Of a DNA stretch of 64,000 nucleotides, positions 8,396 through 25,630 are shown in pieces (position 1 is the stretch's first letter; each line of letters opens with the position of its first letter). A program made the translations under genes and the position numbers. Under the pieces are notes generated by a model. That model was not told the DNA's origin, did no database searches, and saw only the letters and a list, made by a program, of their open reading frames with translations. Origin of the DNA: Minwuia thermotolerans. GTDB lineage: Bacteria > Pseudomonadota > Alphaproteobacteria > Minwuiales > Minwuiaceae. The stretch spans positions 1 through 64,000 of the forward strand of contig NZ_PIGG01000014.1 of NCBI RefSeq assembly GCF_002924445.1. Direction: 5' to 3'.

Positions 8396-9565
8396 CTACT
8401 TGTAGGGATCGGCGGCGTCGCGCAGACCGTCGCCCATGAAGTTGAACGCCAGCACGATGATGATCACCGGCGCCATGGGCCAGAGCAGCCAGGGCGTCAG
8501 CACCACGGCGTTGAGGTTCTGCGCCTCGTTGAGCAGCACGCCCCAGGAGGTGATCGGCGGCCTCAGGCCGATGCCCAGGAAGGAAAGCGCTGTCTCGCCC
8601 AGGATCATCGCCGGAATCGAGAGGGACGCCGAGGCGATCAGGTGGCTCATGAAGCTGGGCAGAAGGTGGCGGCCGATGACGCGGGTCGGACTCGCCCCCA
8701 TGAGCTGGGCCGCCACGGTGAAGTCCTCCTCGCGGAGCGCCAGCAGCTTGGAACGGACCGCGCGGGCCAGCGATGGCCAGTCGAACAGCGCCAGGATCAC
8801 CGTGATGCCGAAGAAGATCAGCAAGGGCGACCAGTTGGCCGGCAGCGCCGCCGACAGCGCCATCCACAGAGGCAGTTCGGGGAAGGAACGGATCATCTCG
8901 ATGATCCGCTGGATGATGTTGTCGACCCAGCCGCCGTAATAGCCGGAGATGCCGCCCATCACGATGCCGAGGATGAAGGACAGCGTGATCCCGAACAGAC
9001 CGACGGTGAGAGATATCCGCGCGCCATGGACGATGCGGCTGAAGATGTCGCGTCCGAGCCGGTCGGTGCCGAGCAGAAAGAACGAACCGCCCTCGGCCGG
9101 GCAGACGAAATGGAAGCTGCCGGGCACGAGGCCGAAATAATCGTAGCTGTCGCCCAGACAGAAAAAGCGCAGCGGCTGCACTTTTTCCGGGCTGGGTGTG
9201 TAGATGCGCTGACGCATCACCTCGTCCTTCTCCAGGTCGTAACCATAGACGAAGGGACCGACGAAGCTGCCGTCGTGGAACAAGTGGATCGTCTGCGGCG
9301 GCGCCAGGATGTGCTTGGCATCGCGGGTGTTGAGGTCGTAGGGCGCGATGAATTCGCTCATCAGCACCGAGAGGTAGAACAGCGCCAGCACCGCGGCTGA
9401 GATCATCGCCAGCTTGTGGCGGCGGAACTTCCACCACATGAGCTGCCACTGGGAGGCGAGGTAGAATTTCTCCTGCTCCGGCGTCAGCGTCTCGCGCGAC
9501 TGGGGGTCGAAGGGCTGATCGTCGACCCAGTGACGCAGCTTGTCCTCGGAGTCCGAAACGCTCAT
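8396..9565 (-). CDS. ABC transporter permease, DppC/OppC-like, with N-terminal extension
   Basis: 389 residues, longer than usual OppC-type permeases (about 300). After a first membrane segment (about 50-70) there is an insert of roughly 110 residues that should lie in the periplasm, then LGTDRLGRDIFSRIVHGARISL, the start of the transmembrane core. The EAA-type coupling loop AAQLMGASPTRVIGRHLLP is present. The insert resembles that of YejE-type permeases of microcin C/oligopeptide importers. The start overlaps the partner permease by 4 bases. asnB follows 18 bases downstream. The exact substrate cannot be read from the sequence. Confidence 0.9.
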   Translation of the reverse strand: MSVSDSEDKLRHWVDDQPFDPQSRETLTPEQEKFYLASQWQLMWWKFRRHKLAMISAAVLALFYLSVLMSEFIAPYDLNTRDAKHILAPPQTIHLFHDGSFVGPFVYGYDLEKDEVMRQRIYTPSPEKVQPLRFFCLGDSYDYFGLVPGSFHFVCPAEGGSFFLLGTDRLGRDIFSRIVHGARISLTVGLFGITLSFILGIVMGGISGYYGGWVDNIIQRIIEMIRSFPELPLWMALSAALPANWSPLLIFFGITVILALFDWPSLARAVRSKLLALREEDFTVAAQLMGASPTRVIGRHLLPSFMSHLIASASLSIPAMILGETALSFLGIGLRPPITSWGVLLNEAQNLNAVVLTPWLLWPMAPVIIIVLAFNFMGDGLRDAADPYK

Positions 9566-10587
9566 TTCGCTACGCCCCCGCCCAGCCGGATCCGGGGATC
9601 GAGCATCGCCAGAAGAAGGTCGGAAATCAGCATGCCGACCACGGTGAGGAACGCCAGGAACATCAGGATGGAGCCGGCAAGATACTGATCCTGGCTCTGC
9701 AGCGATTGCAGCAGGATCGGGCCGAGCGTCGGCAGCTGCATCACCACGGCGACGATGGCCGAGCCGGAAACGACGGCGGGCAGCAGGTTGCCGATGTCGG
9801 CGATGAACGGGTTCAGCGCCATGCGCACGGGGTACTTGATCAGCAGCCGGCCGGGCGGCACGCCCTTGGCGCGTGCAGTCACCACATACTGCTTCTGCAG
9901 TTCGTCCAGCAGGTTGGCGCGCAGCCGCCGGATCATGCCGGCGGTGCCTGCGGTGCCGATGACGATCACCGGCGCCACCAGATGCGCCAGCACGGAACCC
10001 GCCTTGCCGAGCGACCAGCCCTCCGAGAGGTATTCGGGGTCCATCAGGCCGCCGATGGAGACGCCGAACCAGAGATTGCCGAAATACATGATGATCAGCG
10101 CCAGCAGGAAGTTCGGCGTCGCCAGGCCGAGATAGCCGAGGAAGGTGAAGCCGTAGTCGCCGATCGAGTACTGCCTTGTCGCCGAATAGACGCCGATCGG
10201 GAACGAGACGATGTAGATGAACAGGATCGTGGTGAAATTGAGCAGCATAGACAGGAACAGACGGTCGCCGACCACATCGGCCACGGGCAGGTCCTGTTCG
10301 AAGGCCCAGCCCCAGTTGCCCTGCAGGATGCCGTCAAAGCCGTTGGGCCCCGGCCAGAGCCCGACCCACATGCCGTACTGGACGATGGCCGGTTCATCGA
10401 GGCCGTATTGCTGACGCAGGAATTCGACCCGCTCCAGCGCCGCGGCCTCGCCCTGGGCCTGCAGTTCCTTGACCAGGTTCGACAGGTAGTCGCCCTCGGG
10501 GAGCTGGATGATCACGAAGGTCACGATCGAGATCACGACCAGTGTCGGGATCATGATCAGCAGGCGATGGATGATGTAGGTGAACAT
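9562..10587 (-). CDS. ABC transporter permease, DppB/OppB-like
   Basis: 341 residues from the ATG at 10587, which begins MFTYIIHRLLIMIPTLVVIS, the standard first segment of DppB/OppB permeases. Six membrane segments and the coupling loop VVTARAKGVPPGRLLIKYPVR are visible. It should form the membrane channel with the adjacent OppC-like protein. The reading frame stays open far upstream (to 10950) inside the binding-protein gene, but the membrane segment and family length support the start given. It is 20 bases downstream of the binding-protein gene. Confidence 0.92.
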   Translation of the reverse strand: MFTYIIHRLLIMIPTLVVISIVTFVIIQLPEGDYLSNLVKELQAQGEAAALERVEFLRQQYGLDEPAIVQYGMWVGLWPGPNGFDGILQGNWGWAFEQDLPVADVVGDRLFLSMLLNFTTILFIYIVSFPIGVYSATRQYSIGDYGFTFLGYLGLATPNFLLALIIMYFGNLWFGVSIGGLMDPEYLSEGWSLGKAGSVLAHLVAPVIVIGTAGTAGMIRRLRANLLDELQKQYVVTARAKGVPPGRLLIKYPVRMALNPFIADIGNLLPAVVSGSAIVAVVMQLPTLGPILLQSLQSQDQYLAGSILMFLAFLTVVGMLISDLLLAMLDPRIRLGGGVAK

Positions 10588-10607
10588 CGTCTGGTCTCGT
10601 TCCGTCT

Positions 10608-12517
10608 TCAGCGGGCGGCGGTGCGCAGGGATTCGGGCTCGTACCAGAACGTGTCCGGATTGTAGATGCCGAAATAGGCGCCCGGATCCCAGTGGTAGAC
10701 GCCCTTCTTCGGCACATTGCGCAGGCCGCGGCGCACCACGACCGGCTGCGGTACGGAGGTGACGACGCCGATGGAGTAGACCTGCTCCACGTTGATCTCC
10801 AGCATCTCGTGCCAGATGCGGCGTTTCTCGGCGGTGTCGGTCGACAGCTTCCAGTCCTTGTAGAGCTCCAGAAGCTTCGACGGCAATTCCATGTCCGGCG
10901 GCGAGCCCATGGTGCCGCCCGATTCGTGATGCAGTCCCCATTTCGGCCACTGCAGGCCGAGCTGACTGGTCGGCGCCAGTTCCTCGGGACTCATCTCCGG
11001 CGTGGCCAGGCCCGCCTGGATGCCGTTCCAGACCGAAACCATCGCCAGGCCCGCGGACACGCGGTTGCGGAAGGTGTCGCGCTGCGAGGGCTTGATGAAC
11101 AGCTTCACGCCGACTTCGCGCCAGGTCTCGCCGATCAGTTCCAGGATGTCGATCTGCTGCGGATCCTCGCCCGAAGTCTCGACGATCACTTCCAGCTTGC
11201 GCCCGTCGGGCAGCAGGCGGATGCCGCCGCTCCGTTCCGTCAGGCCGAGTTCGTCGAGCAGTGCGTTTGCGCGCTCGGGGTCGTATTCCGCCCAGCGTTT
11301 GGCGTAGCTCTTTTCATAAAGGCGGCTGCGCGGCAGCACGGTGTTGTTCTGTTCCCGCGCATCGCCGAAATAGATCACCTCGTTGATCAGTTCCCGGTCG
11401 ATGGCGAGGGAGAGGGCGCGGCGGAACCGGACGTCGCGGAGCAGCTCTCGGTAGTATGGATCCCCGTAGTTGAGGTTGGGGAACAGAGCCATTTCCGCGC
11501 CCATGGCCGTCTCCCAGGCGTAGACGTCGTAATTGCCGCGGTCCTCGGCCTCCTTCAGGAAGGTCCAGTCCACCAGCCGGATCCCCAGCGCCTGCAGATC
11601 GGTCTGACCGGAGCCGGCCTGGGCCGGAATCAGCGCCGGCGAGGCGACGGTCAGGATCATGCGGTCCAGATAGGGAAGCTGCCGGCCGTTCTCGTCGACC
11701 TTGTGAAAGTAGGGATTGCGCACCCCCTCGAAGCGGCCCGTCGACTTGTCTTCAGTGCGGTTCTTCCAGGGCTGCAGCGTCGGCTGTTCGATGTTGTCGA
11801 AGCGGTACATCCGGTCGCGGCGGTTGTGCAGGGAGGCCCAGTTGGGCCGCTGCGCCGCCTCCACCTTGCGCGCCAGCTCTTCGGGATCGGCGTGGTTGAC
11901 GTGGAACTGCTTCAGGTAGTGGGCCGGCCGGTAGATGAACAGCGGCGAGGCGCCGGCGAGGCGCGGCAGGAACTGCGGGTTCGGCGCCGGCCAGGTATAC
12001 CGGACGGTGTATTTGTCGGGGAACTCCACCACCGGGGAATGCCCCTCGACCTGCAGATAGGCCGGAACGCCGCCGGGATTGAGTTCCTCGTTGAGGACCA
12101 GATCCTCCCAGAAATAGCGGAAATCATCCGACGTCAGCGGATGACCGTCGGACCACTTGTGTCCGCGGCGCAGGTGGAAGGTGAAGATGCGGCCTTCCTC
12201 GACCGTGAAGTCCTTCGCGATGTCGGCGACGAAATCGTAGTTCCGATCATAGCCGACCAGCCGGGCGTAGCTGTAGACTACCATGTGGCGCAGATAGCGG
12301 TCGCGCGGGATCAGGATGTTGAGATCGCCGCCATGCAGGCCGGCAGACCTGTTCTGGCCATAGCTGACCACCAGTGGCTCGTCCGGCAGCCGCTCATTGA
12401 CCGGCGGCAGTTCGCGGGACTCGACCTGCTGCTCGAACCACGGGGTTTCGATGTAGCTCTCTGCCGCCGCGCCGGTGACCGCGCTGAGCCCGACGAACAA
12501 GGCTGCGAGCCATCGGA

Positions 12518-12521
<4 letters not shown>
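10608..12521 (-). CDS. ABC transporter solute-binding protein, family 5 (oligopeptide type)
   Basis: 637 residues with a signal peptide (hydrophobic core LAALFVGLSAVTGAAA, cleaved near AAA-ES). The mature protein shows family 5 features: LRRGHKWSDGHPLTSDDF, the WSDG-x-P-x-TA/SDDF signature, and RFRRALSLAIDRELINEVIYFG near the middle. At more than 600 residues it matches YejA-like oligopeptide or microcin-C-type binding proteins rather than the shorter DppA. The ATG at 12521 overlaps the stop of the upstream ATPase gene (ATGA), showing translational coupling. It delivers its ligand to the two permeases encoded directly downstream. Ligand unknown. Confidence 0.92.
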
Positions 12522-14416
<1,895 letters not shown>

Positions 14417-14929
14417 TCAGAACGGTCCCCCAACCTGTTCGGGAAGGTCCAAGCCCATGGCGCCCGCATTCTGCCGTGTCATGGCGTCAAAACCGATTCC
14501 GCGCTCCGCGGCGGCGGAAAAGGCCGCTTCGGCCAACCGGTCGAAGTCCTGCATCGCCGAATCCACGCGTATCGCTGCGCCGCCCCCCTTGATGTTCAAT
14601 TGCATCCACCCCGACGTTCTATCGCGCCAGGTTGAATAAAATCTCAACGTCACCTCGTCCAACTCGTCCCATCGCACCGACCTCGCCAGCGGACCGCGCT
14701 GACGGACCGCCTCCGCATCGACGATCGTGACGCTCAACTGCCGCGCCACCGTCCTGACCGCAAACCCAGCAAAAAGAAGGCCAAGTGCACCGAGCAGCCA
14801 GACCATGACAGAAGAAAGTGGGACAAACAATGCCGGACCGGCAAAGACTGTGAGGCCGATCACCGCCCTGAGATAGTCTCCGCGAAGCGCCCGCGGCGGA
14901 TAGCGGTATTCCCCTGCCCCTTGGGTCAT
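14417..14929 (-). CDS. Small membrane protein with PH-like domain, function unknown
   Basis: 170 residues from the ATG at 14929, which overlaps the stop of the upstream glycosyltransferase gene by 4 bases. After a short cytoplasmic start there are two close hydrophobic segments (AVIGLTVFAGPALFVPLSSV and VWLLGALGLLFAGFAV, about 20-58). A beta-rich region follows (LSVTIVDAEAVRQRGPLARS, RWDELDEVTLRFYS), typical of bacterial PH-like (bPH) domains that sit under a membrane hairpin. I do not recognise a specific family and give no function. Its place between glycan genes and the ABC importer links the two halves of the long minus-strand run. Confidence 0.7.
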   Translation of the reverse strand: MTQGAGEYRYPPRALRGDYLRAVIGLTVFAGPALFVPLSSVMVWLLGALGLLFAGFAVRTVARQLSVTIVDAEAVRQRGPLARSVRWDELDEVTLRFYSTWRDRTSGWMQLNIKGGGAAIRVDSAMQDFDRLAEAAFSAAAERGIGFDAMTRQNAGAMGLDLPEQVGGPF

Positions 14930-16047
14930 TGGCGCGCCAGAAGGGTCTCGGCGGCGCACGTCAGCCCGTCCAGATCGACGGCGCCCGCGAAGACCGGCGC
15001 CGGAGCCGACAGCGCTGTCCGGACGGCGGCGGCGAGCGCCGGCGCAGCCAGGCCGGATTCATGCACCACGCGCAGCCCGAAGGGCGCCAGCGCCGCCGCC
15101 CGGCGCAGCTGTTCGGTCTCGCTCTCGCCTTCGAACGGTACGACCACAGCCCGGGTTCCGCACTGCATAAGATCTACGGCCGTGTTGTAACCCAGTTGGG
15201 ACACCGAAAGCACCGCCCCGCGCAGACGGGCTCGGAAATCCGGCGCCACTGATTCGAAGACCGAACCCGATGCGGCCGCCGCCCGCCATTCCTTCAACCG
15301 CGCGGACGGCGTTCCCGCGCCATGCCGGAACCGCCAGCGGTACGGAACCTTGCCGCGCAGCAACGCCGAGGCCCCGACCGCAGCCTCGAACAGCCGCTCC
15401 CCTGATGCCCCGCCACCGGCCGAGACCAGAATTTCGCCCTCGCCGGCCGGCCCCGGCATGGGCTCCGCAAGATATCCGGTGTGCACGATTCGTCCCCGGA
15501 AAGCGCCGATCCCCGGTACGCTGTCGACGATCGGCGTCAATCGGGCATCGCCATGGACCAGCAGCAGGTTGAAATACTGCTGCAGCCAGGCCAGCGCTTC
15601 GGACTCCCGAGCGGGGCGGCGGTTGACGATGTCCCGGACCGAGCAGGCGATGGTCCGGCAGCGCCCTTGCGCCTGGTCGAGCAGCGCCAGCAGTTCGAAG
15701 CGAAGCTGGCGGCGGCCGAGCGGAAAAAGTTCGATCACCAGAATGTCGGGCCGGCGTTCTTCGAAGATCGCCAGCAGTTTGTCGCGGCGGCGGCCGAGAA
15801 ACTCGTCGTCGACGTCCCGCCCCTCCCCATCGATCAGGCCGGAGAACCGCAGGTCCTTCGCCCGAACCGGCGGCAACTGGCGGAACTCGACGTCGGACGG
15901 CAGCGCGATCTGGGGCGCGGGCGGCCCGCCGGAAACCAGGGTGACCGCCGCGCCGTGCTCGGCCAGGGCGCCGGCCAGCATGGCCATGCGCTTCAGATGG
16001 CCGACGCCCAGCAGGTGCTGGACATGGATCATGACCCGATCCGTCAT
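14926..16047 (-). CDS. Glycosyltransferase family 28-like protein (GT-B fold)
   Basis: 373 residues starting MTDRVMIHVQHLLGVGHLKR. The GVGHLKR glycine/His motif at the end of the first strand is typical of MurG/GT28-like GT-B enzymes. The C-terminal half has a nucleotide-sugar-site-like segment (LSVSQLGYNTAVDLMQCGTRAVVVPF), as in UDP-glycosyltransferases. It is a relative of the protein at 20495-21712 (same GxGHLxR start, same overall plan). Its start overlaps the histidine-phosphatase gene by 4 bases. The acceptor and sugar are unknown; context suggests surface or secreted glycan assembly. Confidence 0.8.
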   Translation of the reverse strand: MTDRVMIHVQHLLGVGHLKRMAMLAGALAEHGAAVTLVSGGPPAPQIALPSDVEFRQLPPVRAKDLRFSGLIDGEGRDVDDEFLGRRRDKLLAIFEERRPDILVIELFPLGRRQLRFELLALLDQAQGRCRTIACSVRDIVNRRPARESEALAWLQQYFNLLLVHGDARLTPIVDSVPGIGAFRGRIVHTGYLAEPMPGPAGEGEILVSAGGGASGERLFEAAVGASALLRGKVPYRWRFRHGAGTPSARLKEWRAAAASGSVFESVAPDFRARLRGAVLSVSQLGYNTAVDLMQCGTRAVVVPFEGESETEQLRRAAALAPFGLRVVHESGLAAPALAAAVRTALSAPAPVFAGAVDLDGLTCAAETLLARQ

Positions 16048-16619
16048 CGCCGGAGCGGCAGGTTGATGGTGACGGGCCGCAACGCGCCGGCCGCGAAATC
16101 GAGGACCTGTCCCGCCGACCAGTCGATCTTCTCCGGCGGATCGGCGGTCATGTCCCAGCCCCAGGCGCGGGCCAGCGCCGCCCGCATGACACCCTTGTGG
16201 GTGACGAGAATGGCCCGGTCCGTGTCCAGTTCCGCCAGAAAGCCGAGCAGCCGCTCGCCCACTTCGCGCGGGGTTTCGCCGCCGGGCGGCCGCATGTCCA
16301 GCCCCCTCGCCTCCAGCGCCGCCAGACCCGCAGGGTCGTCCGCACGAAGTTCGGCGTGGGTACGGCCTTCCCATTCGCCGAAATCCATCTCCGTCAGCCG
16401 CGGTTCGATCCGCGCCCTGTCGAGTCCGAGAAGTTCGGCGGTCCGACGCGCCCGGCCGAGCGGGCTGACAAAGGCCGGGGCGCCGGCGAAGTCGGCCGGC
16501 AGGGTGTGGCCGCGTTGCTCCAGGCGGCCCTCTGCGGACAGCGGCACGTCCGTCCGGCCCTGGATGCGGCGCCCGGCGTTCCAGTCCGTGCGCCCGTGGC
16601 GGATCATCAGGATGCGCAT
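16044..16619 (-). CDS. Histidine phosphatase (phosphoglycerate-mutase-like)
   Basis: 191 residues. The catalytic RHG motif is at IRHGRTDWN (His8), the second core residues are in FGEWEGRTHAE, and the C-terminal active-site His is in LVTHKGVMRA. This is the histidine phosphatase fold, which removes phosphate from sugars, sugar phosphates or nucleotides. It overlaps genes on both sides (13 bases with the upstream glycosyltransferase, 4 with the downstream one) and is therefore embedded in the glycan gene run. A sugar-phosphate or lipid-linked intermediate is a reasonable guess for the substrate, but this is inference. Confidence 0.87.
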   Translation of the reverse strand: MRILMIRHGRTDWNAGRRIQGRTDVPLSAEGRLEQRGHTLPADFAGAPAFVSPLGRARRTAELLGLDRARIEPRLTEMDFGEWEGRTHAELRADDPAGLAALEARGLDMRPPGGETPREVGERLLGFLAELDTDRAILVTHKGVMRAALARAWGWDMTADPPEKIDWSAGQVLDFAAGALRPVTINLPLRR

Positions 16620-17689
16620 ATCCGCCCCAGGATGCTGTTGAGCCGCGCCGCGGCGGCGGCGAAGCCGTGGCGTGCGCCGGCATGTCCCCAGCCACGCTGA
16701 CGCAGACGGCTGTATAACGCGCGCTGGGTCATCACCCGCGCCAGGACACGGCCGAAGGCGACCGGGTCGCGGGGCGGAACCAGCAGCCCGTTGACGCCGT
16801 GGCGGACGACCTCGGATACCCCGCCTTCATTGCCCGCCACCACAGGCAGACCCCGCGCCGAAGCCTCGATCAGGGCCATGCCATAGGCCTCGTTGACCGC
16901 CGGCCAGACCAGCAGATCGTGTTGACGATAGACCCGCGCCAGGCGTCCGGCCGGCAGCGCGCCCACGAAATCCACCCGGCCGCGGTACGGTGCGAAGGCC
17001 TGGCGAACATGCCGGGCGGCGACGCCATCGCCCACCACGGTCAGCCGCCAGGGAAGGTGGCGTACGCCGGCGAGGGAACGGGCCAGCAGACGATAGGAAT
17101 GCAGCTTGTCGCCCGGGCGCATCATGCCGACGGCCAGCAGCCGCCGCGGCAGCCGGCCCGCCTCCCGCCTCGGCCCGGCGCGCAGGGGGGCGAACGGGGT
17201 CAGGTCGAACAGCTTCTCCGGCGCGACGATGCGAGCCAGTCCGGCCCGGTCCCGCGCGGTCAGGCAGAGCACGCCGTCGGCGCGCGCGATGGCGTCCAGC
17301 GCGGCCCGCGCGAAATGCGCGTGCGGCCCGATCAGACGCCGTGCCGAATGGCTCGCCTCGGCCACGACATAGGGGATAGACAACCGTTCGCAGATCATCG
17401 GCCCGATCAGATCCGGCGCCTTGTAGTAGACGTGATAGGTGAACCAGAGGTCCGGTGGATCCTCAAGCAGGCGCGCAGCCAGCATCGCCGCCTCCTGCCG
17501 GGCCTGGGAGACGATGCGGCCCTGCGCCGCCGCGTCGCCCGCCGCCTCCCGGGAACGCAGCCGGCTGGCCAGGAAGACCTCGTGGCCGGCGGCGCGCAGC
17601 GCGGCGATCATCTGCCGCGCCATCGCCCGGTCCCCCGAAGGACGCGGATGGTCGGGTGGCTTCAGCGGCGCGTAGAAGGCGATACGCAT
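16607..17689 (-). CDS. Glycosyltransferase, family 4-like (GT-B)
   Basis: 360 residues from the ATG at 17689. The N-terminus (MRIAFYAPLKPPDHPRPSGD) is a GT4 donor-fold start. The C-terminal half has VGDGVAARHVRQAF, VGALPAGRLARVYRQHDLLVWPA, NEAYGMALIEASARGLPVVAG and GVNGLLVPPRDPVAFG, the E-x7-E region and PRDP loop of GT4 retaining enzymes. The frame remains open upstream to 18619 inside the next gene, but the start given is at a natural N-terminus and overlaps the previous stop (TGATG). It probably adds one sugar in the pathway encoded here; no specificity can be given. Confidence 0.88.
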   Translation of the reverse strand: MRIAFYAPLKPPDHPRPSGDRAMARQMIAALRAAGHEVFLASRLRSREAAGDAAAQGRIVSQARQEAAMLAARLLEDPPDLWFTYHVYYKAPDLIGPMICERLSIPYVVAEASHSARRLIGPHAHFARAALDAIARADGVLCLTARDRAGLARIVAPEKLFDLTPFAPLRAGPRREAGRLPRRLLAVGMMRPGDKLHSYRLLARSLAGVRHLPWRLTVVGDGVAARHVRQAFAPYRGRVDFVGALPAGRLARVYRQHDLLVWPAVNEAYGMALIEASARGLPVVAGNEGGVSEVVRHGVNGLLVPPRDPVAFGRVLARVMTQRALYSRLRQRGWGHAGARHGFAAAAARLNSILGRICAS

Positions 17690-18891
17690 CACGCCGCCGC
17701 CAGCCCGAAACGCTGCGCCAGCCGGCCGATGCAGCGGTCGAGGTCGAAATCGCGTCGCACGATCTCCTCGCCCCGGCGGCCCATGCGCTCCGCCTGTCCC
17801 GGGTCGGCCAGCAATTCCTCGATTGCGGCGGCGAGTCCGGCAACGTCTCCTTCTGCGGCGAGACGACCGTTCTCCCCGTCGAGGATCAGTTCCGGAATGG
17901 CCGAGACGGCGGTCGCGACCACCGGCAGCCGCTGGCTCTGCGCTTCCACGATCACGTTGGGCAGTCCATCGCGGTCGCCGTCGCCGGTGACGCGGCTGGC
18001 GAGCGCGAACAGGCTCGCTTCCCGGCAGGCGGCCAGCACGGCCGACTGCGGCTGCGGGCCGCGCCATTCGACGCGGTCGGCGAGGCCGAGTTCGGCGGCC
18101 CTGGCCTGCAGCTTTCCGATCTCGCCGCCGCCGCCGATATGGACGAAGCGGAAGGGCGCCCGGACCCGCGCCAGGGCTTCGAGCAGATCGCCATAGCCCT
18201 TCTTCGGCACCGCCCGGCCGACCGAGAGGATCACCGGGGGCGCGGCCTTCGCCGGGGCGGACGGCGGCGGAAAGCGATTCAGGTCGAGGCCGTGATAGAC
18301 CAGTTCCACCCGGCCCTCGGGCGCCAGCGCGGCGAGGTGGTCCGCGTTCACGCCTGTGCAGGTCACGGCCCAGGCGCAGGCCGCCAGCTTCTCGCGCTTC
18401 TCCCATTCGGGGCTGGTCCAGATATCCTTGGCGTGGGCGGAGACCGACCAGGGCAGACCCCGCAGCAGTGCGGCGTATCTCGCGACCGACGCCGGCGTGT
18501 GCAGGAAATGCGCGTGCAGCCAGGCGACGTCCGGCGGAAGTTCGGCTGCCATGACGAAGGCCTGGCCCAGCCGGCGCACCCGGTTGGCGGTCGGGTCGCG
18601 GGCGAAATCGCGCTCCCACAGCTTCAGCACCTGGCCGTAGGCCGGCAGCTCGCGGCAGGCAGCGATGGCACGCCGAACCCTTTCCGGCTCCTCCCTGAGA
18701 TACTCGGGCAGATAGGCGACCGGCGCCTCGATCTCATCGTGGACCGGATGGACCGCCTGGTCGGTCGGATGGCGCAGCGACCAGATATCGATGGCGAGGC
18801 CGCGCCGCTCCAGCGCCCGGATCTCCTGTGCGATGAAGGTTTCCGACAGTCGCGGATAGCCTTTCAGGATGAACGCCGTGCGCCCCGCCAT
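17689..18891 (-). CDS. Glycosyltransferase family 4 protein
   Basis: 400 residues. The N-terminal domain begins AFILKGYPRLSETFIAQEIR, a motif common in colanic-acid/WcaL-like GT4 enzymes. The C-terminal domain has ILSVGRAVPKKGYGDLLEAL, GPQPQSAVLAACREASLFAL, GLPNVIVEAQSQRLPVVAT and GENGRLAAEGD, the full set of GT4 donor-binding elements. It should be a retaining, nucleotide-sugar-using enzyme of the cytoplasm. The gene joins the next glycosyltransferase by a TGATG overlap and follows the TylF-like methyltransferase after 11 bases. Confidence 0.92.
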   Translation of the reverse strand: MAGRTAFILKGYPRLSETFIAQEIRALERRGLAIDIWSLRHPTDQAVHPVHDEIEAPVAYLPEYLREEPERVRRAIAACRELPAYGQVLKLWERDFARDPTANRVRRLGQAFVMAAELPPDVAWLHAHFLHTPASVARYAALLRGLPWSVSAHAKDIWTSPEWEKREKLAACAWAVTCTGVNADHLAALAPEGRVELVYHGLDLNRFPPPSAPAKAAPPVILSVGRAVPKKGYGDLLEALARVRAPFRFVHIGGGGEIGKLQARAAELGLADRVEWRGPQPQSAVLAACREASLFALASRVTGDGDRDGLPNVIVEAQSQRLPVVATAVSAIPELILDGENGRLAAEGDVAGLAAAIEELLADPGQAERMGRRGEEIVRRDFDLDRCIGRLAQRFGLAAA

Positions 18892-18902: not shown

Positions 18903-19685
18903 TCAGCCGGCCTTGACGGCGATCCGCGCCGCCGTGTCGATGCGGTGCAGGAAGGGCCGCCCGCCATGCTCGTCGAAATACCGGTCCGTCGCCTGCCGCG
19001 CGCCCTCATAGGCGCCGTAGTCGTCGATGATCAGGAAGCCGCCGGCCGTCAGCCTGGGGTAGAGATGAACCAGTTCGTGATAGGTCGACTGGTACCAGTC
19101 CGTATCGAGCCTGAGCAGCGCGATCTCCTCCGGCGCGCGGTCGGGGATCGTGTCCTCCACCTTGCCCTCGACATAGTCGATCATCTCCGCCGGGTAGCCG
19201 GTCGCCGCCATGTTGCGCCGGACCTCATCGAGGGGTGCATAGGCCCATTCGTTGTGATCGCCCTTCTGCTGCATCTCCCAGCGCGCGATCGTGTCGGAGC
19301 CGTCGCGCTGGCGGACGTCGATCGGGTCCGGCTTCGTCATGCCGGCGAATGTGTCGTAGAGGCGGATGCGGCGGTCGGTGACGCCCAGATGCTTCAGGGT
19401 GAGCGCGATCGTCATGGCGCTGCCGCCCTTCCAGACGCCGCATTCCACGAACTCGCCCTCGATACCGAGGCCGACGATGTGACGCGTCGCGTTGAACAGG
19501 GCGTAGACGCAGTCCGGCGTGGTCATCGTGTAATCGCCGACGCGGGCGAAGATCTCGGCGAACTCCGGTTCGACGTCACGCGGCAGCTTGATCTGGCGGT
19601 TGCGCAGCGCATGCTGGGGAAGCTTGCGGAAGGTGAAGTCGTAGCCGAACTTCAGCGCAAGCTTTTTCAGCGGTTTCGCGGACAT
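18903..19685 (-). CDS. TylF/MycF-family O-methyltransferase
   Basis: 260 residues. GEFVECGVWKGGSAMTIAL is the family's SAM-binding motif. RLYDTFAGMTKPD and LLRLDTDWYQSTYHELVHLYP carry the metal-binding Asp residues, and FLIIDDYGAYEGARQA closes the fold. TylF and MycF methylate hydroxyls of deoxysugars in macrolide biosynthesis; relatives occur in many surface-glycan loci. Position among three glycosyltransferases makes O-methylation of a sugar residue the likely job. The stop and start codons of this and the PhyH-like gene overlap by one base. Confidence 0.88.
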   Translation of the reverse strand: MSAKPLKKLALKFGYDFTFRKLPQHALRNRQIKLPRDVEPEFAEIFARVGDYTMTTPDCVYALFNATRHIVGLGIEGEFVECGVWKGGSAMTIALTLKHLGVTDRRIRLYDTFAGMTKPDPIDVRQRDGSDTIARWEMQQKGDHNEWAYAPLDEVRRNMAATGYPAEMIDYVEGKVEDTIPDRAPEEIALLRLDTDWYQSTYHELVHLYPRLTAGGFLIIDDYGAYEGARQATDRYFDEHGGRPFLHRIDTAARIAVKAG

Positions 19686-20428
19686 CAGGCGGCGGTGGCG
19701 GGGTTGCGCCCCAGGCGCGCCGCCCGGGCCTTGCGGTAGGGCTCGGGCAGGCGAAGCTCGGTGTCCCGATGGCGGAAATGGAACCCGAGGCTGATGCGCG
19801 GCTCGTCAGTGGTGTTGTGGAAGGAGCCGTGCACGGTGTAGGTGTGCGCCACGACCGCGTCGCCGGGCTCCAGGATCATCGGCACCGGCTCGCGGAAGGC
19901 GCTCATGTCGCATTCCAGGTTCTCCAGACCGAACTCGTCGGTCGCCACCCAGTGGTACATCCGGCCCAGCCTGTGGGTGCCCGGTACGAACCAGATGCAG
20001 CCATTGTCCTCGTTCGTCGCCGTCATGGGCACGAACAGGCAGCAGACCCGGGAATCCGACAGGCCCCAGTAGACGCCGTCCTGATGCCAGTGCTTGGTAC
20101 GCACCTCGTTCGGCAGCTTGGTGAAGGCGAAGCTCTGCAGCAGTTCCGAGGGGCCGTTGAACCGTTCGATCGTGCCCTGCACCACATCGGAGCGCATCGC
20201 GTTCTCTATCGCGGCGGATTTGAGATGGATGTCCTTCTGCGACCGGTGGTTCTGGCTGACCAGACCCTCCACGTCGGCGCGGATCGCGCCCAGCGTCTCC
20301 GCCGGAACATGGCCGCGCAGGATGACATAGCCGTCACGGTTGAACGCTTCCGCGGTCGCCGCGTCCAGCCCCGGACCGGGCTCGGCGGGCACGAAGGCCT
20401 GGGGTTCGATGAAATCGTTGATTGCCAT
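19685..20428 (-). CDS. Phytanoyl-CoA dioxygenase (PhyH) family protein
   Basis: 247 residues. The 2-His-1-carboxylate iron site can be read as HWHQDGVY (His115, Asp117) and the distal VHGSFHN (His200), followed by the 2-oxoglutarate-binding Arg in EPRISLGFHF. It should be an Fe(II)/2-oxoglutarate-dependent oxygenase that hydroxylates a small molecule. It is the first gene of the minus-strand glycan run, with a 66-base gap to the next gene upstream that could hold a promoter. Hydroxylation of a sugar or lipid in the same pathway is inference from context. Confidence 0.88.
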   Translation of the reverse strand: MAINDFIEPQAFVPAEPGPGLDAATAEAFNRDGYVILRGHVPAETLGAIRADVEGLVSQNHRSQKDIHLKSAAIENAMRSDVVQGTIERFNGPSELLQSFAFTKLPNEVRTKHWHQDGVYWGLSDSRVCCLFVPMTATNEDNGCIWFVPGTHRLGRMYHWVATDEFGLENLECDMSAFREPVPMILEPGDAVVAHTYTVHGSFHNTTDEPRISLGFHFRHRDTELRLPEPYRKARAARLGRNPATAA

Positions 20429-20494: not shown

Positions 20495-21712
20495 CTATCC
20501 CACCGCCCGCTCGGCGCGGCTGAGCCGCGGCTTGGCGCGGACCAGCCAAGGCTCGGCCAGGCGGTTGACGTTGGTCAATCCCTCGAGCAGGCCCGGAACC
20601 ACCACCTCGGAGGGGCGCTTCTGGCGCGGCATCCGCCTGAGCGCGGCCGCCATGGCCGCGGCGTCGCGCTCCCCGTCGTCGGCAATCATCTGCACCAGAT
20701 CGAGTTCGGCGGCGCGCTCGGCGCGGATCGTCTGCTCCAGCCGGGGCACGCGGCGCGGCACGATGATGGCGCGCTTGTCCAGCGAGAGTATCTCGCAGAA
20801 GGTGTTGTAGCCGCCCATGGCCACCACGCCGGCGGCGCTGGCCATAAGGTTCTCGAAATGCGGATCGAAGGTGATCGCCTCGACGCGCTCCAGCTGGGCG
20901 GCGCGCTCGTGGAAGCTGGCCTGCAGTTCCGGCGGCATGAACGGGCCGAGCGCCAGCAACGCCGGATAGGGTAACAGCGGGTCGCTTTCATAGGCTTTCA
21001 GCACCCAGTCGATCAGCCCCTCGCCGTCGCCGCCGCCGCCTGTGGTCACCAGCAGGAACGGGCGCTGCGTGATCTCCGGCAGAGAGACAGACGCGGCCGT
21101 CCCGGGCCGGCGCGGCAGATAGCCGGTATAGACCATCTTGGACTGCACCTTCGGCGTCAGTTCCATCCCTTCGAGCGGATTGCAGATCTGGGGCAGGCCG
21201 TAGACCCAGATATCGTCGTAGAGATCCTCCAGCGCGGGCATGACGTTCTTGCGCTGCCATTCGGGCGCCAGCAGCTTGGGCTCGTCCATGACGTCCCGCA
21301 GGCCCAGCACAAGACGCGTGCCTCGGCTCTTCAGCATCTCCAGCGTCGCCTTGACCTCACCGCGCAGACCCAGCGGCTCCTTGTCGACAATGAAGATGTC
21401 GGGATCGAAGCTGGCCGCGGTGTGGCGGATGATCGAGGCGCGCAGATCGAGCGTGTCCTCGATGTCCATATGCAGGTTCAGCGAGGTGTACTCGCCGTTG
21501 CGCAGCTTGATGACACCCGGCACACGCACGAAGTCGACGCGCGCGCGAAAGTCGAAACTGCCGATGATCGGCGAGCCGGAGAGAATAAGAACCGACAGGT
21601 TCTTGTGGTTCTCGACCAGCGAATGCGCGATCGTCCGGCATCTGCGCAGATGACCCAGCCCGAAAGTGTCGTGACTGTAAATCAGCACGCGCGATCCACG
21701 GCTTGTAGCCAT
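20495..21712 (-). CDS. Glycosyltransferase family 28-like protein
   Basis: 405 residues. The start VLIYSHDTFGLGHLRRCRTI carries the GLGHLRR motif of MurG-like GT-B enzymes. The C-terminal part (GGGGDGEGL, AAGVVAMGGYNTFCEILSLDKRAIIVPR) matches the nucleotide-sugar site of UDP-glycosyltransferases. It is homologous in plan to the gene at 14926-16047, so the pair may be ancient paralogues framing the glycan locus. It is read away from the ABC-like operon that starts at about 21801, with a shared upstream region of 184 bases. Substrate unknown. Confidence 0.82.
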   Translation of the reverse strand: MATSRGSRVLIYSHDTFGLGHLRRCRTIAHSLVENHKNLSVLILSGSPIIGSFDFRARVDFVRVPGVIKLRNGEYTSLNLHMDIEDTLDLRASIIRHTAASFDPDIFIVDKEPLGLRGEVKATLEMLKSRGTRLVLGLRDVMDEPKLLAPEWQRKNVMPALEDLYDDIWVYGLPQICNPLEGMELTPKVQSKMVYTGYLPRRPGTAASVSLPEITQRPFLLVTTGGGGDGEGLIDWVLKAYESDPLLPYPALLALGPFMPPELQASFHERAAQLERVEAITFDPHFENLMASAAGVVAMGGYNTFCEILSLDKRAIIVPRRVPRLEQTIRAERAAELDLVQMIADDGERDAAAMAAALRRMPRQKRPSEVVVPGLLEGLTNVNRLAEPWLVRAKPRLSRAERAVG

Positions 21713-21829: not shown

Positions 21830-21896
21830 TGCGTGGCGCGCATGGCCTGGAGGGGTACGGATGCGGGCCACTCAGCCCGCATCAGAGGGGAAGCGG

Positions 21897-24623
21897 ATGG
21901 AACGGAACGTCTTCAGCTTCATTCTGAAGTACAGCTACAAGCAGCAGATCGTGCTTGTGGCTATGGCTGTGATCAACATGCCGCTGACCCTGCTGGGCTA
22001 CACCCTTGTCGAGAACATCGTCAACGAGGGCATCCAGGGTTTCCGCAAGGTCGAGCGCGAGGTGACCAACGCCGCCGGCGAGGTCGCCACCAAGACGGAA
22101 AAGGTGCCGATCGATTTCCCCGAGGCTGTCTTCGGCATCGGCCCGGAATTCGATCAGGTCACCTTCCTGTTCATCCTTGTCGGCGTCTTCCTGGCCAACA
22201 TCCTGCTGCTGCAGGGCATCAAGTACGCGCTGAACGTCTATCGCGGCGTCACCGCCGAGCGCATGCTGCGCCGCCTGCGCTACAACCTGTTCAACCGCAT
22301 TCTCCGCTTTCCCCGCCGCACCTTCCGGAAGGTGAGCCAGGGCGAACTGATCTCCATGATCACCGCCGAGGTCGAACCGCTCGGCGGTTTTGTCGGCGAG
22401 TGCTTCTCCCTGCCGGTGATGCAGGGCGGCATCATGCTGATGTCGCTGGGCTACATGCTGATCGCGGACTGGAAGCTGGCGCTGGCGGCCGTGGCGCTGT
22501 ACCCGCTGCAGTTCTACATCATCCCGAAGCTGCAGAAGCGCGTGAACATGATGGGCAAGGAACGCGTGCGCCGCGTCCGCAAGCTGTCCGAGAAGATCGG
22601 CGAGAGCGTCACCGGCGTCACAGAGATCCACGCCAACGACACCTCCAACCTGGAACTGGCCAACTTCTCCCACCACCTGCACGGCATCTACACGGTGCGC
22701 CTCCAGATCTACATCTGGAAGTTCGTCATCAAGTTCGTGAACAACTTCATCCAGCAGCTCGGCCCGGTGATGTTCTATTCCATCGGCGGCTATCTGGTGA
22801 TCATCGGCGACCTGGATCTGGGCACGTTGTTCGCCGCGATCAGCGCGCACAAGGAGATCGGCGCGCCGTGGAAGGAGCTGCTGGGCTACTACCAGCGCCA
22901 GGCGGACGCCCGCATCAAGTACGATCAGGTGGTCGAACAGTTCCAGCCGGCCGGCCTGATGGCCGCCGACCGGCTGATGGAGGAGCCGGAGACGGTGCCG
23001 CACCTGCGGGGCGACATGAAGCTGTCCGGCGTTACCCTGACCGACGAGCAGAACAACAACCTGATCGACGGTCTTTCGGCGACGACGGCGCTGACGAAGC
23101 GGATCGCGCTGGTCGGCGGCGGCGGTTCCGGGCGCGAGGAACTGTTGCAGCTGCTCGCCCGCCTTGAGGATCCCGACCGCGGGACCATCGCCTATGGCGA
23201 GCACGACCTGTCGACCCTGCCCGAAGCCGTCACCGGGCGGCGCATATCCTTCGTCGACGGCGCGCCGGTGATCTTCAACATGAAGCTCGGCGACAACCTG
23301 TTCTACGGCCTGCGCCACCGGCCGAGGTCGGAAGACGCCTATGAGGGCGAGGAAAAGACCGAGCACGAGCGCTATCTCCGCGAGGCGCGGGCGTCGGGCA
23401 ACCTCGACTACGACCCTGCCGCCGACTGGACCGATTACGACGCCGCCGGCGCCAGCGACCTCGCGAGCCTGCGGGCCGAGGGCATCGAATCGCTGAAGGT
23501 CGTCGGGCTCGACGAGGACATCTACCAGTTCGGCCTGCGCGGGCGCATCGATCCCGACAAGCAGCCCGACGTCGCCGAGGGCATCCTGAAGGCCCGGGCG
23601 GCGCTGGAGGACCGAATGTCGGACCCCGAGGTCGCGGCGCTGATCGAGCGCTACGATCCCGAAACCTACAACACCAACGCCACGGTGGCGGAGAACCTGC
23701 TTTTCGGCACCCCGGTCGGTGACACCTTCGACGTCAAGAACCTGGCCGAACACGAGTACATCCGCGAGGTGCTGCGCAAGGTCGACATGGAACGCGAGAT
23801 GATCGCCATGGGCTATCAGGCCGCGGCGACCATGGTGGAACTGTTCTCCGACCTGCCGCCGGACCACGAACTGTTCCAGCAGTTCAGCTTCATCTCGGCC
23901 GACGACCTGCCCGAGTACCAGGCCCTGCTGGCCCAGTACAGCAAGGAGCAGATCGACGACATGCGGGAGGAGGAGAAGCTCCGCCTGATGTCCCTGCCCT
24001 TCAAGCTGATTCCGGCGCGGCATCGTCTCGGCATCATCTCGGAACCGGTGCGCGAGCGTATCCTTCAGGCGCGCAAGGCCTTCGCCGAGAACCTGCCCGA
24101 CGATCTGACGGGTTCGGTCGATTTCTTCCATCCGGACGAATACAATGCCGCCGCGAACATCCTGGACAACATCCTGTTCGGGAAGATCGCCTACGGCCAG
24201 GCGCAGGCCCAGGAAAGGGTCGGCGCGCTGATCCGTCAGCTGATGGCGGAACTTGAAATCGTCGACACGGTCGCCGAGGTCGGGCTGGAGTACGACGCCG
24301 GTATCGGCGGCTCGCGGCTTTCGGCGTCCCAGCGGCAGAGGCTGGCCCTGGCCCGCGCGGTCGTGAAGCGTCCAGACGTGATGATCCTGTCGGAGGCGAC
24401 GGCCTCGCTCGACAGCAACAGCCAGGCGCGCATCCTGGACGGACTGCTGCGGCGCTTCGAGGGCGGCGGCCTGATCTGGGGCGTGCACCGCGCCGCGATG
24501 GCCGAACGCTTCGATCACGTGATCGTCGTCAAGGGCGGCAAGGTCGTGGAGAGCGGGTCGTACGAGGAACTGAGCAAGGACGGCACCGCGCTGCGCGAGA
24601 TGATCGACAACGAGGCCGCCTGA
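21897..24623 (+). CDS. ABC-exporter-like membrane protein with degenerate, expanded nucleotide-binding domain
   Basis: 908 residues from the ATG at 21897 (AGAGGGGA ribosome site; an in-frame ATG at 21861 behind GGAGGGG is an alternative). Residues 1-350 form a type IV ABC exporter membrane domain. The nucleotide-binding domain is abnormal: Walker A reads GGGGSGREE (407-415), lacking the Lys and Ser/Thr that hold ATP phosphates. The Q-loop reads FVDGAPVIF (452-460) without Gln. The signature is LSASQRQR (808-815). Walker B reads MILSEATASLD, with Ser832 in place of Asp, though Glu833 and the H-loop His864 remain. Walker A and signature are 400 residues apart instead of about 110-130. The extra segment repeats a P-x2-[YF]-N...[DE]N[LI][LF][FY]G motif at about 457-471, 588-604 and 746-762. 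It probably does not hydrolyse ATP in the normal way. Confidence 0.85.
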   Translation: MERNVFSFILKYSYKQQIVLVAMAVINMPLTLLGYTLVENIVNEGIQGFRKVEREVTNAAGEVATKTEKVPIDFPEAVFGIGPEFDQVTFLFILVGVFLANILLLQGIKYALNVYRGVTAERMLRRLRYNLFNRILRFPRRTFRKVSQGELISMITAEVEPLGGFVGECFSLPVMQGGIMLMSLGYMLIADWKLALAAVALYPLQFYIIPKLQKRVNMMGKERVRRVRKLSEKIGESVTGVTEIHANDTSNLELANFSHHLHGIYTVRLQIYIWKFVIKFVNNFIQQLGPVMFYSIGGYLVIIGDLDLGTLFAAISAHKEIGAPWKELLGYYQRQADARIKYDQVVEQFQPAGLMAADRLMEEPETVPHLRGDMKLSGVTLTDEQNNNLIDGLSATTALTKRIALVGGGGSGREELLQLLARLEDPDRGTIAYGEHDLSTLPEAVTGRRISFVDGAPVIFNMKLGDNLFYGLRHRPRSEDAYEGEEKTEHERYLREARASGNLDYDPAADWTDYDAAGASDLASLRAEGIESLKVVGLDEDIYQFGLRGRIDPDKQPDVAEGILKARAALEDRMSDPEVAALIERYDPETYNTNATVAENLLFGTPVGDTFDVKNLAEHEYIREVLRKVDMEREMIAMGYQAAATMVELFSDLPPDHELFQQFSFISADDLPEYQALLAQYSKEQIDDMREEEKLRLMSLPFKLIPARHRLGIISEPVRERILQARKAFAENLPDDLTGSVDFFHPDEYNAAANILDNILFGKIAYGQAQAQERVGALIRQLMAELEIVDTVAEVGLEYDAGIGGSRLSASQRQRLALARAVVKRPDVMILSEATASLDSNSQARILDGLLRRFEGGGLIWGVHRAAMAERFDHVIVVKGGKVVESGSYEELSKDGTALREMIDNEAA

Positions 24624-24651
24624 GTACCGGCGTTCGGGGAGGACCGACCCT

Positions 24652-25128
24652 ATGAGCCTGAATGAAGAAGTCGAACTGCTCAGGCAGATTCCGATGTTCC
24701 AGAAGGTGGAGCAGTCGAAGCTGAAGCTGCTCGCCTTCACCTCGGAGCGCCTGGTGTTCCAGCCGGGTCAGGTGATCTGCGAACAGGGCGAACGCGGCGA
24801 CAGCATGTACGTCATCGTCGACGGCGACGCCGACGTGATCGTCAACCTGCCCGCCGGGCCGCTTACCGTGGCGCAGCTGCACAAGAACAGCTTCTTCGGC
24901 GAGATCGCGATCCTGTGCGATATTCCCCGCACGGCGACCGTCAAGGCGACCACCGAGCTGACGACGCTGCGCATCACCACGGACCTGTTCTACCGCCTGG
25001 TCGCGGAGTTCCCGCAGATGTCGATCGAGATCATGCGCGAAATCGCGGCGCGTCTGGACCGTACCACGCGGGACCTGCAGTTGACGCAGAAGGAACTCGC
25101 CGAAGTCCGCGAACATCAGGGCGGCTGA
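24652..25128 (+). CDS. Cyclic-nucleotide-binding-domain protein
   Basis: 158 residues made almost entirely of one cNMP-binding (Crp-like) fold: VFQPGQVICEQGERGDSMYVIVDGD, then the phosphate-binding cassette FFGEIAILCDIPRTATVKA. The cassette Glu and Arg that contact the ribose and cyclic phosphate are kept, so ligand binding is likely. A short helical tail (TRDLQLTQKELAEVREHQ) replaces a DNA-binding domain, so it is not a transcription factor. It begins 28 bases after the ABC-like gene and is probably its regulatory partner. Which nucleotide binds, and what it controls, is unknown. Confidence 0.88.
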   Translation: MSLNEEVELLRQIPMFQKVEQSKLKLLAFTSERLVFQPGQVICEQGERGDSMYVIVDGDADVIVNLPAGPLTVAQLHKNSFFGEIAILCDIPRTATVKATTELTTLRITTDLFYRLVAEFPQMSIEIMREIAARLDRTTRDLQLTQKELAEVREHQGG

Positions 25129-25138
25129 TTCCCGCCCC

Positions 25139-25630
25139 ATGTCCCGCCTCGATTCCTTCATCCAGCGGCTGCAGGCGCAGCGCGCCTGTCTCGACGCCGC
25201 CGCGGCCATGATCGCTGACCTGCCGGGGCCGGCGCTGGAACTCGGCCTGGGCAATGGCCGGACCTACGATCACCTCAGGACACTGCTGCCCGGGCGCCGC
25301 ATCTTCGTCTTCGAACGCGAGGTCAGGGCCCAGCCGGACTGCGTGCCGCCGGCGGCAGATCTGTTTCTGGGCGACTTCACCGAGCAACTGCCCGGCGCCA
25401 TGGCGCGCATGGGCGAACCCGCGGCCCTGGTCCATGCCGATATCGGCACCGGCGACAAGGCGGCCAGCCTGGCGCTGGCCCGTTCCATCGCCGGCGCGGT
25501 CGTCGATCTGATGCGCCCGGGCGCCGTGCTGCTTTCGGACCAGCCCTTCGAGGATCCGCGCCTGCATACCGCGCCCCTGCCCGACGGGGTGGCTGCAGGC
25601 CGCTACCACCTGTCCATCGCAACGGAGTGA
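25139..25630 (+). CDS. Small SAM-dependent methyltransferase-like protein
   Basis: 163 residues. PALELGLGNGRTYDHLR (about 31-47) is a SAM-binding motif I, followed by the acidic end of strand 2 (IFVFEREV) and AALVHADIGTGDK. The fold is short for a class I methyltransferase, with little room for a substrate-binding domain. It starts 10 bases after the cNMP-domain gene and its stop overlaps the ribosome-binding site of the following thioesterase gene, so all four plus-strand genes look like one operon. Substrate unknown. Confidence 0.75.
   Translation: MSRLDSFIQRLQAQRACLDAAAAMIADLPGPALELGLGNGRTYDHLRTLLPGRRIFVFEREVRAQPDCVPPAADLFLGDFTEQLPGAMARMGEPAALVHADIGTGDKAASLALARSIAGAVVDLMRPGAVLLSDQPFEDPRLHTAPLPDGVAAGRYHLSIATE

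Follow-up and report, generated by a model that had tools for sequence, protein, structure and literature searches.

The ABC gene and its ATP-site motifs

The window, the whole stretch of 64,000 nucleotides of Minwuia thermotolerans DNA that was analysed, contains a gene for an ABC exporter-like protein. A small cyclic-nucleotide-binding domain (CNBD) gene lies directly downstream on the same strand, and a series of glycosyltransferase and importer genes occupies the opposite strand upstream. The ABC gene has the following features:

21897..24623, + strand: ABC exporter-like protein, 908 aa, with degenerate ATPase motifs
21897..22940, + strand: membrane half, with an ABC_membrane match at residues 86-316 and the top-conserved large region at residues 86-348
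23115..23141, + strand: degenerate Walker A motif GGGGSGREE, residues 407-415
24378..24416, + strand: Walker B/D-loop region ILSEATASLD, residues 828-840, with Asp replaced by Ser at 832

The protein is a half-exporter, with one transmembrane domain (TMD) and one nucleotide-binding domain (NBD), and is conserved in Alphaproteobacteria. The Pfam models ABC_membrane (86.5 bits) and ABC_tran (55.9 bits) both match above their cut-offs. The NCBIfam search of the protein indicated general exporter similarity and gave no match above an equivalog cut-off; TIGR02203 (MsbA) scored 196.9 bits, the equivalog cut-off being 602 bits. In the Walker A motif, Arg413 and Glu414 stand where Lys and Ser/Thr are expected. 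The Q-loop Gln position, 455, is a Gly. The signature is LSASQ (residues 808-812), and Ser832, Glu833, the D-loop Asp839 and the H-loop His864 are all present. The spacing between Walker A and the signature is approximately 400 residues, and the protein carries an insert of approximately 270 residues. The initial annotation had the coordinates, the length, this spacing and every residue it quoted correct.

A sequencing error or pseudogene was ruled out, as the reading frame is maintained in relatives at 98% and 76% identity, and so is the degenerate Walker A. An antisense open reading frame of 952 aa (21882-24740, - strand) was taken as a shadow frame of GC-rich DNA, being interrupted in the relatives at 76% identity (L005/L006). 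A second ABC-like match in the genome, on contig C9, is UvrA.

Relatives align over the full length of the protein. We extracted 126 distinct full-length members, which share a common architecture at 32-98% identity. The gene was matched in 132 of 385 alphaproteobacterial genomes (about one third), some of the matches being fragments or TMD-only paralogues. A set of 398 genomes drawn across the phylum gave 27 matches, all of them in Alphaproteobacteria. The taxonomic scope comprises these alphaproteobacterial and phylum sets, with other phyla sampled by one genome-contig scan. The gene is also found on 262 plasmid records, chiefly from Rhizobium and Sinorhizobium. SMb20813 of S. meliloti, a putative counterpart, is termed an msbA homolog in a passing mention in the available text of one paper (PMC10945364).

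As judged from the alignment, the ATP machinery is degenerate family-wide while the membrane half stayed conserved. The Walker A Lys position (413) is Lys in 69 and Arg in 46 of the 126 members, thus one or the other in 115. Position 414 is Ser/Thr in 5/126 and Glu/Asp in 103/126. The Walker B Asp position (832) retains Asp in 17/126, with Asn in 68 and Ser in 27 (95 together). The catalytic Glu833 is present in 70/126 and absent in 44%, and the H-loop His864 is present in 44/126 and lost in 65%. Only two members retain Lys, Ser/Thr, Asp and Glu together. The signature keeps Q812 in 109/126 members and its first Gly in 16/126. The catalytic positions fall between approximately the 15th and 60th percentile of conservation; the D-loop Asp ranks at the 89th percentile and the signature Gln reaches the 80th. 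Conservation is 0.68 in the membrane half versus 0.43 in the C-terminus; the TMD is the top-conserved large region and contains many invariant polar residues. Between 12 and 19 changes of motif state can be placed on the family tree, indicating repeated loss of the ATP motifs. Nearly every one of them is gone in a clade in which the CNBD is fused to the protein.

These data bear on several points of the initial annotation. Its description of the signature, Glu833 and His864 as near normal holds for the Minwuia protein but not for the family. The sequencing error that it had considered, with canonical Walker A/B in close relatives, does not agree with motifs that are degenerate across all but two of the 126. 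Its proposal that ATP handling was changed or lost is borne out family-wide as far as changed motifs are concerned; loss of ATP binding is not, as Lys413 is kept in more than half of the members.

The tripled Q-loop/helical-subdomain segment

The insert lies between Walker A and the signature, in a region with three repeats:

23232..23615, + strand: repeat 1, Q-loop/helical-subdomain segment, residues about 446-573, motif PVIFN...DNLFYG at 457-471
23640..24089, + strand: repeat 2, residues about 582-731, motif PETYN...ENLLFG at 588-604, resembling the P-gp/TM287 helical subdomain
24117..24365, + strand: repeat 3 (residues about 741-823), comprising the helical subdomain at its canonical position and the signature helix, motif PDEYN...DNILFG at 746-762

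The segments were compared over the family by HHalign profile-profile alignment (R1, 440-582; R2, 572-735; R3, 731-840). The probabilities were 98% for R2-R3 (E 1.4e-13), 91% for R1-R2 (E 9.5e-7) and 85% for R1-R3 (E 6.4e-6), while control segments from the same protein gave 0-0.6%. Against the canonical Q-loop/helical region, represented by a profile from 10 sequences, R1, R2 and R3 scored 97%, 61% and 99.6%, respectively. The recurring motifs pointed out in the initial annotation are thus part of related repeats.

In the AlphaFold model of the ABC protein (pLDDT 79, pTM 0.66), the ABC fold of the NBD is predicted to be retained. The modelled NBD superposes on that of ComA at 1.7 A with 240/240 residues aligned (Z 25). 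The best fold matches of the protein include chains of TmrAB and TM287/288, and SUR chains are also among the matches. Folded alone, the insert has a pLDDT of 79. Its top two structural matches are residues 1121-1193 of P-gp (Z 5.1) and residues 415-490 of TM287 (Z 4.8), both low Z scores, with the next rows at Z 2.5. Each of these matches is the helical-subdomain stretch, aligned via the R2 part of the insert. A Foldseek search of the insert gave zero matches at E 0.001, and Pfam and PDB sequence searches of it returned sub-threshold chance matches only, with no known sequence family.

The profile and fold comparisons rule out an insert unrelated to the NBD for repeat 2. They support the view that the insert consists of two extra helical-subdomain copies, a tripling found family-wide, in agreement with the double duplication within one NBD that the initial annotation had proposed. 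L113 and L163 have near-canonical Walker A and Walker B motifs alongside the tripled segment, indicating that the insertion could occur without the ATP site being lost.

The cyclic-nucleotide-binding partner and the glycosyltransferase module

The genes around the ABC gene are:

24652..25128, + strand: CNBD protein, 158 aa, directly downstream of the ABC gene, with an intact phosphate-binding cassette, FGEIAILCDIPRTATV
25139..25630, + strand: Methyltransf_17 methyltransferase, a frequent third gene
20495..21712, - strand: GT28-like glycosyltransferase, the divergent upstream neighbour, co-occurring with the ABC protein
19685..20428, - strand: PhyH-type dioxygenase, present in close relatives
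18903..19685, - strand: TylF-type methyltransferase, present in close relatives
17689..18891, - strand: group 1/GT4 glycosyltransferase
16607..17689, - strand: second group 1/GT4 glycosyltransferase, start approximate
14926..16047, - strand: GT28b, second glycosyltransferase-like gene, start approximate; its S. meliloti and R. etli counterparts carry the annotation 'glycosyltransferase'
8396..14416, - strand: YejABEF/Opp-like importer, with the double ATPase at 12518-14416, the binding protein at about 10608-12521 and the permeases at 9562 and 8396

The only Pfam match of the 158-aa protein is cNMP_binding, and no DNA-binding domain was matched in it by Pfam. Some of the family's CNBD proteins are annotated as 'transcriptional regulator'. 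A stand-alone CNBD gene follows directly downstream of the ABC gene on the same strand in 109 of 125 loci, and in another 14 the CNBD is fused to the ABC C-terminus. The fusion maps to one event on the family tree, and a Pfam search confirmed it for Ruegeria sp. B32. Members lacking an adjacent CNBD gene are L013/L031 and L147. In the phosphate-binding cassette, Gly and Arg are found in 122/122 CNBDs and Glu in 114/122. The CNBD protein is a putative cAMP/cGMP binder. The ATP motifs thus decay while the cNMP motif stays intact. The conserved partner, fused in one clade, lends strong support to the initial annotation's description of a regulated member.

Class III cyclase genes were detected in 21 of the 22 ABC-positive genomes tested; the PF00211 cyclase is missing from the remaining one (G115). 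In Sinorhizobium, Rhizobium and some others, a class III cyclase gene is located inside the ABC cluster.

Across the 385 genomes, the ABC and GT28 genes occur together in 125, ABC only in 7, GT28 only in 1 and neither in 252, counts that are uncorrected for kinship. The co-occurrence persists where the genes are unlinked. Absence is concordant as well: G023 lacks both genes, which other members of its family (f16) carry. GT28 is one of four glycosyltransferases or glycosyltransferase-like proteins that form a module with the importer; GT28b has no Pfam match. The importer has the YejABEF make-up of an SBP_bac_5 protein, two BPD permeases and a double ABC ATPase. The ABC match at 12932-14341 was ruled out as an exporter partner, as it is the double ATPase of this peptide importer. 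The glycosyltransferase and importer genes at 8396-18891 look like one undescribed pathway. They are also found on pSymB of S. meliloti, in R. etli, and in distant genomes with a relocated ABC-CNBD fusion.

About one third of the searched alphaproteobacterial genomes, those of Sinorhizobium and Rhizobium among them, carry the four glycosyltransferases, peptide-type importer, ABC protein and CNBD. No function for this combination was found in the literature searched. This suggests an unstudied, signal-controlled glycan system.

Possible mechanism and relation to known ABC proteins

The TMD and NBD fold is shared with the type IV (B-family) exporters MsbA, TM287/288, TmrAB and PCAT1. Compared with these, the family has mostly lost the Walker A Ser/Thr and the Walker B Asp, mostly retains the D-loop Asp and the signature Gln/Arg, and adds the insert of two helical subdomains and the cyclic-nucleotide-binding partner. 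In ABC exporters, a degenerate ATP site normally has the backing of a canonical partner. Degenerate Walker/H-loop residues are likewise found in TAP, TmrAB, BmrCD, CFTR and Pdr5, where the partner NBD retains a canonical site, whereas the present protein is mostly single-copy, has lost several motifs and has no linked partner that we could see. Such residues have been kept over evolution in exporters with one degenerate site (PMC7756269). The CNBD protein shares the cNMP_binding domain and the conserved phosphate-binding Arg with CRP/Fnr-type proteins, but lacks a matched DNA-binding domain and is either encoded alongside the ABC protein or part of the same chain. By its make-up (a large SBP_bac_5 protein, two permeases and a double ATPase), the importer is likened to YejABEF and YejBEF-YepA, though its genes here accompany those of four glycosyltransferases. 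In Rhizobiales, peptides and muropeptides are substrates of Yej systems, and YejBEF-YepA imports muropeptides in Agrobacterium (PMC9790009).

What appears new here is the form of the NBD together with the sensor partner, the ABC exporter architecture being known. None of the curated families searched names the ABC protein or its insert. A literature search found no paper that joins these features, an absence that is not proof since most subscription papers were outside its scope. Within the literature and families covered, the family appears to be undescribed, in line with the initial annotation's view of a candidate undescribed system.

We tentatively propose, at somewhat less than an even chance, that the protein is a cNMP-coupled, exporter-like pseudo-ATPase serving a glycoconjugate pathway. 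The residues for Mg-ATP binding and hydrolysis would be gone from its NBD, with the ABC fold, D-loop Asp and signature Gln/Arg kept and the two extra helical subdomains inserted ahead of the signature. It would partner the CNBD protein, which is separate in Minwuia and fused in one clade. The signal of cNMP binding to this partner would pass through the enlarged helical region, reach the coupling helices and thereby set the conformation of the TMD dimer. The TMD would then move, flip or gate the product of the co-occurring glycosyltransferases. Here we infer the absence of ATP-driven cycling, the gating by cNMP, the docking site and the glycoconjugate substrate. In part of the family ATP may still be bound or hydrolysed, because Lys413 is present in 55% and Glu833 in 56%, and L113 is near-canonical. 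By analogy with other exporters, whose degenerate sites bind ATP (PMC7756269), the protein may well bind ATP without hydrolysing it.

The protein could instead be one half, the degenerate one, of a heterodimeric exporter and rely for catalytic residues on a canonical half encoded elsewhere, an arrangement known from TM287/288, TmrAB and TAP. Degenerate-site heterodimers are frequent among exporters (PMC7756269), two of these systems are among the best fold matches, and the Minwuia genome encodes many further ABC exporters. However, heterodimeric pairs are usually neighbours, and no linked partner half-transporter was found in the loci examined. Both composite sites would moreover use this NBD, which lacks the Walker A and Walker B residues simultaneously, and the signature residues vary too. 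We regard this arrangement as unlikely, and give the same weight to an ATP-driven exporter that works with unusual residues (Lys/Arg at 413, an acidic residue at 414, Asn/Ser at 832) and has cNMP as an allosteric regulator. The substitutions are non-random (115, 103 and 95 of the 126 members, respectively), and two members retain all four catalytic residues. Loss of the Mg-coordinating Ser/Thr and the Walker B Asp in most members argues against such an ATPase, as do the frequent losses of Glu833 and the H-loop His and the near-complete loss of motifs in the fused clade.

SUR binds nucleotide and gates Kir6. In SUR1/SUR2 the exporter fold is thought to be used for regulation, as is proposed for the ABC protein, although no channel is seen with the latter and its linked sensor is the CNBD protein. 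A non-transporting, SUR-like protein that acts in the membrane as a sensor or scaffold, recruiting the glycosyltransferases and reporting the substrate or cNMP state, would be in line with the degenerate motifs, the CNBD partner, the glycosyltransferase module and the occurrence of TMD-only relatives in some of the same genomes. The strong conservation of the TMD and its invariant polar residues suggest a substrate path, and we consider this reading improbable. The same conservation speaks against the 'non-transporting' label of the initial annotation, arguing that a substrate-related or conformational role has been kept.

In its strongest form, the cNMP-coupled pseudo-ATPase would be an ATP-free, exporter-derived transporter or flippase, gated by cNMP via a CNBD subunit or fused domain, in a widespread undescribed alphaproteobacterial glycoconjugate pathway; this is a rather doubtful proposition, if a conceivable one. 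If indeed coupled to a second-messenger sensor, a conserved family whose ATP site has lost residues from both of its walls would test whether an exporter fold can run or be gated free of ATP hydrolysis.

TMD-only relatives of approximately 310-425 aa, without an NBD, were observed in Minwuia and other genomes (L042, L018/L053, L019, L021, L022, L166 and L167). L042 (380-2250, Minwuia contig C31) lies between cofD-like and acyl-CoA dehydrogenase-like genes, named by reading their translations.
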